Shown here: piece after piece, positions 4,515-21,119 of the stretch
Numbering within the stretch: the first letter of the stretch is position 1
Layout: every line of letters begins with the position of its first letter
IMG/VR virus record: IMGVR_UViG_3300008220_000061
Location: 1 to 25,291 of that record
DNA length: 25,291 nucleotides
Source of the DNA: a virus
Strand: one strand, 5' to 3'
Notes under the pieces: model-generated
The model's database searches: none
What the model was told of the DNA's origin: nothing
The model's input: only the letters and a program-made list of their open reading frames with translations
Made by a program: the position numbers and the translations under genes

Positions 4515-5186
4515 TTATAATCCTGGTTTATATGGAGATACTCTAAATGATGCTCTGTCTTGGTCTTGAGAAAGAGCTCTTTCAAACTCTTCTTCATATG
4601 TTTGTTTAAGTAGGACAACCCTATCTGGAGCTTTTTTAACTGCAATGTAATATGCAAGTCCAGCTGCAAAACATGGATAGAATCTAAAAGGCATATCCAT
4701 AGTATCTGTTCCTGCATCTGCATCATCCATTCTAACTATTTTATTAAAAACTAATATGTCAGTAGAATTTTCTGGCGATGGCCATATTTTTAATACAGGC
4801 GTTGTTAGTTTATCTAAAAAAAATTCTGATGGTCTTGATTTTGTTGCTTTGGTTGGAATATTTAAGTATTCACTCCTACTTATCATTGACATTTGCATGT
4901 CAGTTGTTGTTCCACCTGTAGTTCTTCTTAAAGAACAATCAAGAATGTCTATTACATTTGAATTTAAAGTGTAACTAGCAGTCCCCTCGGTAACAGTTTG
5001 AGTTGCTTGCTCAATAGTCCATTGATTTAAACCTCTATTAGCCCATTCAGCAAGCATAAGATTAATAGATCTTCTTGCTGTTTTTAAATCATAACCGGTT
5101 CTAAGTTCAAGGCCACATCTTTCAAATGCTTCCTCTACAAACTCAGCTACATTTGGTTCAAAATCTGTACTACCTGATAGCGCCAT
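4515..5186 (-). CDS. Putative head-tail connector / tail tubular A-like protein
   Basis: A 223-residue protein. Its N-terminal helical region (NVAEFVEEAFERCGLELRTG, then DLKTARRSINLMLAEWANRG and LNQWTIE) is highly conserved in marine podo-like phages. It is compatible with the helical bundle of gp11/adaptor-type connector proteins. The middle is beta-rich; the C-terminus is helical (FYPCFAAGLAYYIAVKKAP, then a YEEEFERALSQDQDR helix). It has the overall size and helix-sheet-helix layout of the second adaptor-like gene at 3488-4174, so the two may form successive neck rings. The role is inferred from layout and context, not from a catalytic motif. Confidence 0.6.
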   Translation of the reverse strand: MALSGSTDFEPNVAEFVEEAFERCGLELRTGYDLKTARRSINLMLAEWANRGLNQWTIEQATQTVTEGTASYTLNSNVIDILDCSLRRTTGGTTTDMQMSMISRSEYLNIPTKATKSRPSEFFLDKLTTPVLKIWPSPENSTDILVFNKIVRMDDADAGTDTMDMPFRFYPCFAAGLAYYIAVKKAPDRVVLLKQTYEEEFERALSQDQDRASFRVSPYKPGL

Positions 5187-5819: not shown

Positions 5820-6737
5820 TTATATGTTGAGCTTAATTAATGAGTAGTCAGTGGTTACATCAACCAACATGACAGTTCCTACAATATCAAGTATGTCACT
5901 TGTTGCGGGAGCTACGCCACCTGCAACTGTTGCTGATCTAACTGCGTTATGTCCAAGCACTAATGTTCCTACAGTTAATACTGCTGCTGGTCCATAAGTT
6001 TGGAACCAACCATAAGCACTTAATGCCATGTCAACAACGGGAACACCCATTACTGCACCTGTTTCTGCTGCTGGTGCAACTACAAGTCCAGACCAAGGAT
6101 CTGACATTAAAGAAACTTTAGATGAAGTTGTTATTGCTGTAGCCAATGCATCGTGACATGTTATTACAACTGAAGGGTCAGATGAATGATCGTGTGCTGG
6201 GTTAGAAGCAATTTTTAAACATTGCCCTTCACCTGCTGCATCATTTACATAAAGATAACCGCCTGCATATTGATTTAAAGTAAGGTCAGTTCCTGCTGTT
6301 TCTACTGAAATAGCATATTCACCTGCTGCGACATTTGCTGTTGGTGCTAAATCTTGGTGATCAGCTTTTGTTCCAACAATAGTTTGAACAAGTTTTCCTG
6401 CTGTTAATGCAACACCACCTACTTTACCATATCTAAATACTCTATCGCCGTAGTATAAAACTGATCCTAAAGGAATATCGTTGCCTAAAGCATCTGTTAT
6501 AGAAGTTGTCCCACTTGTAAAAGGGTTAATTACAGAATCAGGACTTGAGCCTTTACCTGTAAAAAAGTCTGTGGGGGCTGAACCTAATATTGAGCTACTA
6601 CCAGTAACACCACCAATTTGATAAGTGCCACCTTCTCTAGTTCCATAGGTAGTCTCTGCTCCTGTTGTGGAGTCGACTCTGTAGGTTATAAAGCCGTTTT
6701 GTGAACGGACGGGACCGCTAAAGCTCGATTTTGCCAT
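5820..6737 (-). CDS. Gly/Thr/Val-rich putative virion protein
   Basis: A 305-residue protein starting MAKSSFSGPVRSQNGFITYR. That segment (SGPVRSxNGF) recurs in phage structural proteins near the capsid gene. The rest is beta-rich with hydrophobic strands such as DILDIVGTVMLVDVTTDYSL at the end. It carries the strongest ribosome site in the late region (AGGAGGAAATT before the ATG), consistent with an abundant virion protein. About 100 untranslated bases lie upstream, so it is the first structural gene after the DUF1289 cassette. It may be a head decoration or tail component; which is not clear. Confidence 0.6.
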   Translation of the reverse strand: MAKSSFSGPVRSQNGFITYRVDSTTGAETTYGTREGGTYQIGGVTGSSSILGSAPTDFFTGKGSSPDSVINPFTSGTTSITDALGNDIPLGSVLYYGDRVFRYGKVGGVALTAGKLVQTIVGTKADHQDLAPTANVAAGEYAISVETAGTDLTLNQYAGGYLYVNDAAGEGQCLKIASNPAHDHSSDPSVVITCHDALATAITTSSKVSLMSDPWSGLVVAPAAETGAVMGVPVVDMALSAYGWFQTYGPAAVLTVGTLVLGHNAVRSATVAGGVAPATSDILDIVGTVMLVDVTTDYSLIKLNI

Positions 6738-6757
6738 AATTTCCTCCTGGGAAATAA

Positions 6758-6799
6758 GTTCTATTGTCTCGGCTTGTCTGCTAGGTCAGTCGATAGAAC
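6758..6799 (-). other. Hairpin-forming inverted repeat upstream of the virion gene
   Basis: GTTCTAT at 6758-6764 pairs with ATAGAAC at 6793-6799 across a 28-base loop, with possible wobble extension. On the minus strand it is followed by TTATTT. It could be a weak terminator for the DUF1289 transcript or a leader structure before the 5820-6737 gene. Confidence 0.4.
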
Positions 6800-6838
6800 A
6801 AATTAATTTATCCTAGATATTGAATTAAGTATATCAGA

Positions 6839-7264
6839 TTAGTCTAAATGTGGAAGTGTTTGTTTTGCCTCTAAAACACTTTCTCTAGATTGATATAGAG
6901 ATTTATATGTATTTTCTATGATAGGATTTGTGCCAAAAAAGTCTACTAAATCTTTTCCAACCATCTCTATTAAAGCTTGAATAGTAATTAATCGACCTTG
7001 AATATCTTTTAATTTTTCTCTTGAAATATTATTTTTCACAATAATTATTTTATCCTTTTTTTGTCTTATATTATATCCTTTTAACCAATTGGTAGTATTA
7101 ATTATTTTTTTTTCAAAATCTGAAAAAGATTCCCAGTCTCTTATTTGATCGACAGTTCTACCACATCCAATACATGTTTCATCGAATGGGGCCACAGATG
7201 TTGAACATACTCCAACACATGGAGAATTAGCTAAACTTATACATTCATGTAAGGCTGTATTCAT
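6839..7264 (-). CDS. DUF1289-domain protein with C-terminal helical extension (moron-like gene)
   Basis: A 141-residue protein. Residues 14-50 read SPCVGVC, then CIGCGRTVDQIRDW and a SDFEKK segment. This matches the DUF1289 pattern: two Cys pairs here at C16, C20, C31 and C34, then an R-T-x-(D/E)-(E/Q)-I-x-x-W box. Bacterial DUF1289 proteins are small presumed metal-binding proteins of unknown function and usually lack the long helical and Lys-rich tail seen here (about residues 65-141). The gene is more AT-rich than its neighbours in its 3' half. It lies between the capsid gene and other virion genes, but has its own promoter at 7288-7317 and is shielded from capsid transcription by the terminator at 7333-7361. 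That suggests expression out of step with the capsid genes. Function is unknown. Confidence 0.75.
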   Translation of the reverse strand: MNTALHECISLANSPCVGVCSTSVAPFDETCIGCGRTVDQIRDWESFSDFEKKIINTTNWLKGYNIRQKKDKIIIVKNNISREKLKDIQGRLITIQALIEMVGKDLVDFFGTNPIIENTYKSLYQSRESVLEAKQTLPHLD

Positions 7265-7287
7265 AAAACCTAAAATGTTTTTCTTGC

Positions 7288-7317
7288 ATTATACATTTAT
7301 TAATCAAAAATAAACAA
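7288..7317 (-). promoter_or_regulatory. Sigma70-type promoter for the DUF1289 gene
   Basis: On the minus strand, a -35-like TTGTTT (7312-7317) is separated by 18 bases from a perfect -10 TATAAT (7288-7293). The -10 is preceded directly by TG (TGTATAAT), as at the plus-strand promoters near 19004 and 21107. It lies just downstream of the capsid-gene terminator and 24 bases ahead of the DUF1289 ATG. Confidence 0.65.
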
Positions 7318-7332
7318 ATATTTTTTTTATGT

Positions 7333-7361
7333 AAAAAAAAAGGGAGCCGAAGCTCCCTTTT
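7333..7361 (-). terminator. Rho-independent terminator after the capsid gene (UUCG tetraloop)
   Basis: The minus strand reads AAAAGGGAGC-TTCG-GCTCCCTTTT followed by more T. This is a 10-bp stem closed by the very stable cUUCGg tetraloop with a U-tract (7333-7340 on the template). It ends the transcript coming from the capsid gene. Confidence 0.9.
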
Positions 7362-7393: not shown

Positions 7394-8302
7394 TTATGCA
7401 CCTTGTGATGCAAAGACAGCTCTTGGGTTTGACCATCCGAATGAGTATCTTTCTCTAGCTTTGAATCTGACGTTGCCAGTATCAAAGTCACCTTCCATAG
7501 AAGTTGAAAGAGGAGATCTCTCGAAGTGTTTAAATCCATCAGGACAATCTGATAATAAATACCATGCATCGTTATCAGTTAAAAAATGATTAACTGAATA
7601 ACCATCTGGGACCATTCCCAGATTTTTAATTGCATTGATATCGTTATCAGATGTACTAACTCTCCCTGGTGATTTTAAAAGTCTATCAGCCACAAATTGT
7701 AATTGTGGTGGAATGATTAACTTTTTACCTTGAAGAGCAAGGATCATATTTTTGTCATCAACAAAAGTTGAAACAGAAATTAAAGCATCTTCTAAAGATG
7801 TTTCATTCAAGTCAGAGTAAGTGCTTGGTCTGTTACTAAATGTACCACCACCAGTTAATGGGTGGGCTGTGCTGATTAATGCAACACCATCTCCACCGGT
7901 ATAACTTGATGAAAAAGCATTATTTAATACAGATGCACCTTTTACTTGCTTCGTATGAGCCATAGATCTTGCTAGAGCCTTAGTGTATCTAGCACCCAAT
8001 CTGTCATAAAGATTATCTTCAATTGCTTCTTCTGTAAGAGCAAAAGCTAACGCAATAGTCTCATGTGAGTATCTAGCAGTATAACCTTCTGAAGCAGAAT
8101 CAAATGAGACTCCAGTTCCTTCTGGTTTTACTTGTGCGTTACCGAAACCTACTATTAAGGTTTCTTCTTCAAATGCTCTATCTGAAGATTCAGTTTCAAA
8201 GATTTCTTTATGTTCATCTTCGTACCTAGCGTATTCCATGCCAAACAAAGCATTTAAACCAGGTTCGAGTTCCTTAGCTAATTGTGAACGATTAATAGCC
8301 AT
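7394..8302 (-). CDS. Major capsid protein
   Basis: A 302-residue protein of the Mu gpT-like/marine phage major capsid type. The N-terminus reads MAINRSQLAKELEPGLNALF; the middle contains FALTEEAIEDNLYDRLGARY and the helix KALARSMAHTKQVKGASVLNNAF. Then come TAHPLTGGGTFSNRP and LQGKKLIIPPQLQFVADRLL, a strand-helix pattern typical of the HK97-fold P-domain. The C-terminus ends with RFKARERYSFGWSNPRAVFA, also typical. Length is normal. GGAG lies upstream of the ATG. Its position directly after scaffold and decoration-like genes, and the strong terminator behind it, fit a highly expressed capsid gene. Confidence 0.85.
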   Translation of the reverse strand: MAINRSQLAKELEPGLNALFGMEYARYEDEHKEIFETESSDRAFEEETLIVGFGNAQVKPEGTGVSFDSASEGYTARYSHETIALAFALTEEAIEDNLYDRLGARYTKALARSMAHTKQVKGASVLNNAFSSSYTGGDGVALISTAHPLTGGGTFSNRPSTYSDLNETSLEDALISVSTFVDDKNMILALQGKKLIIPPQLQFVADRLLKSPGRVSTSDNDINAIKNLGMVPDGYSVNHFLTDNDAWYLLSDCPDGFKHFERSPLSTSMEGDFDTGNVRFKARERYSFGWSNPRAVFASQGA

Positions 8303-12343: not shown

Positions 12344-12588
12344 TACTTTTTCTTAACTACTTTGGCCTTAGCCTTAGAGACAGTTTTAGGCTTTTTGGAT
12401 TTAGACTTAACTTCTTTGGTTGCTTTCGCAAGGACTTTGTCCGCTTCTTTGTCGACCTTTTTGGCGATCTTGTCGATGTCGATATTTGCATTCTCATTGA
12501 TGATCGGTTGATTGCCATTTAATTTTGCCTCTTCTTCTTTCATTGCAGCTTTATTCACTGCTGCCATTTTTTGTCTAACTGAACTCAT
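12343..12588 (-). CDS. Small Lys-rich, Ala-rich phage protein (81 aa)
   Basis: An 81-residue protein. The N-terminal half is mixed (MSSVRQKMAAVNKAAMKEEE, NENANIDIDKIAKKVDKEAD). The C-terminal half is a basic, Lys/Ala/Val-rich tail of the histone H1-like type (SKSKKPKTVSKAKAKVVKKK). It overlaps the portal stop codon (ATGA) and the following small Lys-rich gene (TAATG), so the three are translated in series. No known domain is visible. A nucleic-acid-binding role is plausible from composition only. Confidence 0.65.
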   Translation of the reverse strand: MSSVRQKMAAVNKAAMKEEEAKLNGNQPIINENANIDIDKIAKKVDKEADKVLAKATKEVKSKSKKPKTVSKAKAKVVKKK

Positions 12589-18971: not shown

Positions 18972-19001
18972 GCATTAAAGTGTTATATTTATCTTAAAGC
19001 A

Positions 19002-19016
19002 TGTATAATTAAGGTA
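19002..19016 (+). promoter_or_regulatory. Plus-strand early promoter P1 (-10 and start region)
   Basis: TGTATAATTAAGGTA, with a perfect TATAAT at 19004-19009 and no good -35. It matches P3 at 21105-21119 in 13 of 15 bases. ATTAAAGTGT lies 20 bases upstream of the -10. Confidence 0.6.
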
Positions 19017-20981: not shown

Positions 20982-21104
20982 AAATATTTGCCAGTTCTCT
21001 TTGTAAGAGGTGGAAAAAGCAAATAAATATATTTTTCCTGAAGTTTTTTTTATCGCTACTTATCAATTAAAGTGTAATTTTTTCTTAAATTCATATTAAA
21101 ATAG

Positions 21105-21119
21105 TGTATAATCTAGGTA
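21105..21119 (+). promoter_or_regulatory. Plus-strand early promoter P3
   Basis: TGTATAATCTAGGTA, with TATAAT at 21107-21112. It is the likely promoter of the 21267-25291 cluster. ATTAAAGTGT lies upstream (21066-21075), as near P1. No good -35. Confidence 0.6.

Follow-up and report, generated by a model that had tools for sequence, protein, structure and literature searches.

Mu-gpT-DE (Rfam RF03012) is an RNA family whose Rfam and ZWD versions differ (PMC7657543), and the ZWD version may already include a pseudoknot. In our collection, RF03012 matched the loci L068 and L075 and Roseobacter phage CRP-901, and the 3′ strand of its P1 helix overlaps the Shine–Dalgarno site. For phage leader pseudoknots more broadly, a 2010 review described that of T4 gene 32 as possibly the only viral case for translational autoregulation (PMC3014915). 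On the protein side, the sole experimental lead that we found for the DUF1289 family, and a lead only, is that overexpression of ydhL in E. coli leads to higher resistance to H2O2 and HOCl (PMC8228696).

The window, by which we mean the whole stretch of DNA analyzed here, is a 25.3 kb IMG/VR virus record with genes for TerL, an SU10-type portal, a Mu-gpT-like capsid protein, two SU10 adaptors, and a GroES-like protein. Between the window and Pelagibacter phage HTVC023P, the capsid proteins share 68% identity and the gene order is the same. With this capsid, the SU10-type portal, the adaptors, the GroES-like gene, and the common order, the window falls among the HTVC023P-like/SU10-like podophages. 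One related phage contig, L266, carries a glutamine riboswitch (RF01739) at 12397–12446. The features of the region around the window's capsid gene, listed from 5′ to 3′ along the minus strand, are as follows.

7394..8302, minus strand: major capsid protein gene (Phage_capsid_4/Mu gpT-like; Pfam PF25209, 44 bits; PHROG 371, major head protein)
7333..7361, minus strand: intrinsic terminator of the capsid transcript, AAAAGGGAGC-UUCG-GCUCCCUUUU plus a U tract, conserved 3′ of the capsid gene with or without DUF1289
7288..7317, minus strand: sigma70-type promoter-like element, TTGTTT-N18-TATAAT, with TG directly before the −10 box (15 distinct 30-mers compared)
6839..7264, minus strand: DUF1289 gene, 141 amino acids, with a Cys4 pattern C16-x3-C20-x10-C31-x2-C34 and a helical C-terminal extension (Pfam, alignment A1, structure model, dN/dS)
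6828..6836, minus strand: TGaTATACT, an extended −10-like box that belongs to the next gene and stops 11 nt short of helix a (such a box in 26/35 leaders)
6812..6816, minus strand: 5′ strand of leader helix a, CUAGG, pairing with 6781–6785 (5/5 pairs with double-sided changes, 96.6% of cells paired)
6758..6799, minus strand: leader helix P1, GUUCUAU 6793–6799 with AUAGAAC 6758–6764 (7/7 pairs with double-sided changes, 96.3% paired)
6787–6789 and 6778–6780, minus strand: leader helix P2 inside P1, CUG with CAG
6781–6785, minus strand: P2 loop CCUAG, which is the 3′ strand of helix a
within 6758..6799, minus strand: leader core ACAAGCCGAGAC, enclosed by P1
6739..6755, minus strand: hairpin AUUUCC-CAGGA-GGAAAU enclosing the Shine–Dalgarno site (p = 0.04 for the window sequence; arms co-vary in relatives)
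5820..6737, minus strand: next gene, 305 amino acids, N-terminus MAKSSFSGPVRSQNGF, probable capsid cement/decoration protein (N-terminal motif, gene order)

A first-pass annotation of this DNA had read the DUF1289 gene as a moron, separately transcribed between the UUCG terminator and an inverted repeat. The terminator itself is real as a sequence feature, being strong and the top terminator-like site of the region in our scan. As a cassette boundary it fails. Looking no farther than 150 nt from the capsid stop codon, we found a terminator in 84/84 loci with DUF1289 and in 73/77 loci without it, compared with 3/770 shuffles, and it is present in L048–L050, whose capsid proteins are 88–90% identical to that of the window and which lack DUF1289. 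Because it is kept in phages with and without DUF1289, the terminator is the capsid gene's and not that of DUF1289. The capsid transcript of HTVC023P/SU10-like marine podophages would then end at a terminator of its own. A sequence search of the PDB with the capsid protein gave no useful match.

The claim that an extra gene has been inserted between late genes was borne out by comparison of relatives. In 91 of 98 DUF1289 loci, a count that includes a few duplicate contigs, the gene lies immediately 3′ of the capsid gene; of the remainder, two are too near a contig end to judge, and L047, L107, and three cultured phages (L128–L130) carry it elsewhere. In a tree of capsid proteins, all 45 rows with DUF1289 fall in one clade of 50 (five without the gene), with three to four changes in all, which is best read as one gain and a few losses. 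At one and the same site the gene is present in L216, L223, L224, and L230 and absent from L048–L050, where the same terminator leads directly to the same leader; L048, for example, has the terminator, a −10-like box, the CTAGG...GTTCTAT...CCTAG...ATAGAAC block, and then the next gene. In a sample collected by the leader and not selected for DUF1289, the interval was readable in 194 loci: 30 have the gene (24 CCGAG-type and 6 CTAGG-type), and long inserts of other kinds occur in 12; these counts include some duplicate contigs, and the deduplicated DUF1289 count is 22/152. Other cargo at the capsid–cement site includes GIY-YIG nucleases, Hsp20, and an NT5C nucleotidase, and the cultured phage HTVC027P has two small ORFs there, gp60–gp61. 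DUF1289 is genuinely accessory: it is restricted to a single capsid clade, within which it has been lost secondarily. The gap between capsid and cement genes would serve as a cargo site that takes extra genes with neither unit broken, the window's cargo being DUF1289.

Three loci depart from the usual arrangement. L107 has a short DUF1289 gene of 60 amino acids (4956–5138) 3′ of its portal gene and none after its capsid gene. L047 carries the gene away from the capsid (5833–6171), and the next downstream reading frame appears integrase-like by eye. In L046 (8077–8334), whose capsid gene is 100% identical to that of the window, the DUF1289 gene stops at about residue 74 and is followed by unrelated DNA; this break is either an assembly chimera or a recombination point.

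A profile check of the 141-residue protein upheld its assignment to DUF1289, with residues 14–55 scoring 46.4 bits against PF06945, above the Pfam gathering cut-off of 27. C16, C20, C31, and C34 are all present, and they are invariant across the 26 sequences of alignment A1. The predicted helical extension held in part, as the C-terminal half is helical in a model that is weak (AlphaFold, pLDDT 67). That model gave no usable match in a Foldseek search of the PDB, a PDB sequence search returned nothing useful, and the C-terminal extension had no match in a bacterial genome collection. The gene is under purifying selection (median dN/dS 0.10, with 0.08 for the capsid gene). Relatives of the Cys4 domain are cellular proteins, and the cysteine pattern suggests a metal site. 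Most likely, the product would be a soluble, non-virion, metal-binding protein (Zn or Fe–S) acting as a host-directed or redox-stress factor; our working guess, a low-confidence one, is that during infection it acts on the host in a redox or regulatory capacity.

The sigma70-type promoter proposed at 7288–7317 also stood in part. TTGTTT, the 18-nt spacing, and TATAAT are present and conserved, and the −10 box is perfect; the −35 box is poor, matching TTGACA at only 3/6 positions, and a strict promoter scan omitted the site. Across 15 distinct 30-mers, the TG and the −10 box are invariant and TTGTTT occurs in 14, and both boxes with their spacing are kept in 25 distinct capsid–DUF1289 spacers (44 loci). 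Two quite different sequences precede the gene in other DUF1289 phages: a GATTCT-N6-AGAATC palindrome, possibly an operator, over a TAGAAT box (L035, L038, L053, and L056 among others), and TTGTCA-N17-TTAAAC in another group. An own promoter for DUF1289 is plausible from these spacers, and it would not be uniform among DUF1289 phages because their upstream sequences differ. In the window, the gene would be read from a host-sigma70-type promoter, which is conserved and presumably active. No terminator follows DUF1289 before the next gene begins, so the DUF1289 transcript is expected to continue into the cement gene. Elsewhere in the window, TGTATAAT boxes resembling the DUF1289 −10 lie 5′ of plus-strand genes at 18980–19009 and 21083–21112 (+).

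An independently promoted insertion is therefore supported as anatomy, judging from sequence. Of the moron reading, what survives is an accessory gene at one site with a conserved promoter-like element; it loses its terminators, as the upstream one is the capsid gene's and the downstream repeat is helix P1 of the leader. On the classic form of that reading, a lysogen would express DUF1289 from the gene's own promoter, and the product would alter the host while the phage stays silent. The promoter-like element and the patchy presence at one site fit this, but the gene lacks a terminator of its own, and support for a prophage is wanting: the tyrosine-recombinase integrase family PF00589 had no match in eight related contigs (18–58 kb, all fragments), while the control matched all 14 genomes, and the cultured relative HTVC027P has been described as lytic (PMC12753301). 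We regard a classic moron as quite improbable. It is also unlikely, if less strikingly so, that DUF1289 is an ordinary late gene, transcribed along with its neighbors, whose product is a minor part of the virion or helps to assemble it, and that the element before it resembles a promoter through AT-rich chance. Its strand, its place among virion genes, and its persistence within the clade are as this would predict; however, it is absent from the close relatives with 88–90% identical capsids, the −10 and −35 boxes recur throughout the 25 distinct spacers, and the related Cys4 domains belong to cellular proteins.

At 6738–6837, the window encodes a leader RNA for the probable cement gene; it is conserved and pseudoknotted, and Rfam does not contain this form. 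The leader is 75–80 nt long and has, besides P1, an H-type pseudoknot and a helix covering the Shine–Dalgarno site. A box matching TATAAT at five or six of six positions ends 7–11 nt 5′ of helix a in 26/35 leaders, and because of this spacing the RNA probably begins with the pseudoknot. Helices a, P1, and P2 were derived from a pseudoknot search and an alignment of 35 leaders (A2), in which 13 of 15 pairs show double-sided changes, including every pair of helix a and P1. The covariation score was 0.663, compared with 0.236 after shuffling (0/500) and 0.07–0.161 with partners slid. Paired cells made up 96.8% of A2 against 75.9% in shuffles, a percentage that is partly built in, since pseudoknots were the criterion by which A2 was assembled. 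Folded without the pseudoknot, the leader is not unusually stable (z = 0.21). An RNA model, R1, scored 89.5 bits at 6758..6799 (minus strand) and found one copy per genome in 7/10 contigs and zero in the other three. The inverted repeat of the first-pass annotation is exact in its arms, GTTCTAT/ATAGAAC, but it does not end a cassette: it is the strongly covarying P1 of the next gene's leader and occurs also in phages without DUF1289, which rules it out as a terminator or DUF1289 boundary. A moron bounded by terminator and inverted repeat was rejected on both ends.

The leader travels with the gene that follows it. The gene after the leader was readable in 217 further loci, and in all of them it has a [ST]TF.GPVRS-type start; the pattern scans behind these loci were limited to the P2 hairpin with its loop and the P2–P1′ core, and the loci are independent support for the leader beyond the pseudoknot-selected A2. 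In L266, L269, L306, and L335, leader and gene lie as a unit 3′ of the portal gene rather than 3′ of the capsid gene, and because the two move together, the leader belongs to the downstream gene. Searched by itself, that gene matched nothing in Pfam or the PDB. It is probably a capsid cement protein, based on gene order and on one record, phage DSL-LC04, in which the gene in the same position is annotated "cement protein." It would restart transcription from its own promoter, with the structured leader at its 5′ end.

The leader also appears to place the cement Shine–Dalgarno site in or beside a helix, as indicated by covariation. In window-type leaders, a hairpin 3′ of P1′, which formed in the fold of the window leader, encloses the site with arms that change jointly (AUUUCC/GGAAAU, AUUAAG/CUUAAU, AUUUUUC/GAAAAAU, AUUCUC/GGGAAU). 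In other lineages, the P2–P1′ strand pairs either with the site itself or with flanking sequence (CCUAG/CUAGG, CCUAAA/UUUAGG, CUUACCAAG/UUUGGUAAG, CUCC/GGAG). These helices were sought post hoc with two modes accepted, and the single-sequence p values are modest. Because helices lie in or beside the Shine–Dalgarno site, we infer translational control: the leader most likely adjusts how much cement is translated to the supply of capsid protein, possibly via a bound protein. More speculatively, the leader would act as a pseudoknot switch, sensing a protein or the ribosome and keeping cement synthesis in step with that of the capsid throughout a very abundant marine phage group, with lineages having re-evolved ways to hide the Shine–Dalgarno site (own hairpin, P2–P1′ pairing, P1 overlap) and the Rfam Mu-gpT-DE as one branch. 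We put this forward tentatively, as a possibility that falls short of probable. A rather doubtful alternative makes the leader a stabilizer or processing signal at the 5′ end of the cement mRNA with no translational switch; helix a does lie near the predicted 5′ end, but the helices at the Shine–Dalgarno site, with their matching two-sided changes between lineages, count against it. The adjacent DUF1289 protein, with its four cysteines, might itself bind the leader and regulate cement translation, as the T4 zinc protein gp32 does on its own leader pseudoknot (PMC3014915). Yet 164 of the 194 leader loci with a readable interval lack DUF1289, and both leader types co-occur with it, making this very improbable.

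The proposal as a whole, namely separate capsid and cement units with DUF1289 as cargo between them and a pseudoknotted leader tuning cement translation, seems to us probable by a modest degree. What looked like a moron is thereby replaced by two statements open to test, one about an accessory-gene slot between the capsid and cement units and the other about a pseudoknotted leader RNA. An annotated but unexplained family, Mu-gpT-DE, can also be identified as the downstream gene's leader. The leader can be tested because two cultured pelagiphages, HTVC023P and HTVC027P, carry it.

Compared with described systems, the locus resembles prophage morons and accessory loci in having an extra gene among late genes with its own promoter-like element, but it differs in that DUF1289 lacks its own terminator and the contigs, which are fragmentary, show no sign of lysogeny. 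The window's Cys4 domain passes the Pfam cut-off for the DUF1289 family (PF06945, E. coli YdhL) and is 35–53% identical to bacterial relatives over the domain, whereas the C-terminal extension of about 85 helical residues sets it apart.

The leader shares the Mu-gpT-DE architecture of P1, P2, a single strand, and P1′, with an adjoining Shine–Dalgarno site and start codon at its 3′ end near the capsid gene. It has GAC before P2 and ACA..AGCC..GAC after, and the gap between the capsid gene and the next gene is the same place that the family occupies in L068, L075, and CRP-901. A permuted-strand relation was dropped after P2 (CUG/CAG) was recognized, as plain P1–P2 fits both. In the window form, P2 is only 3 bp long and its loop makes the pseudoknot by pairing with a strand lying upstream; the P1 sequence also differs, the Shine–Dalgarno hairpin is separate, and leaders of this type are shown here to accompany the downstream gene, not the capsid gene. 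The RF03012 model did not match the window at its gathering threshold, nor over this region at E up to 5, and R1, built without the pseudoknot, had no match in L068 or L075 at E up to 0.5; because of the latter, homology rests on architecture, core motif, and place. We class the window element as a variant with a mode of action like that of Mu-gpT-DE, although by the Rfam model it is not a formal member. Like the T4 gene 32 leader, it is a phage mRNA leader pseudoknot 5′ of a ribosome binding site (PMC3014915), but it precedes another gene and is built differently, with one helix enclosing a small hairpin whose loop makes the pseudoknot.
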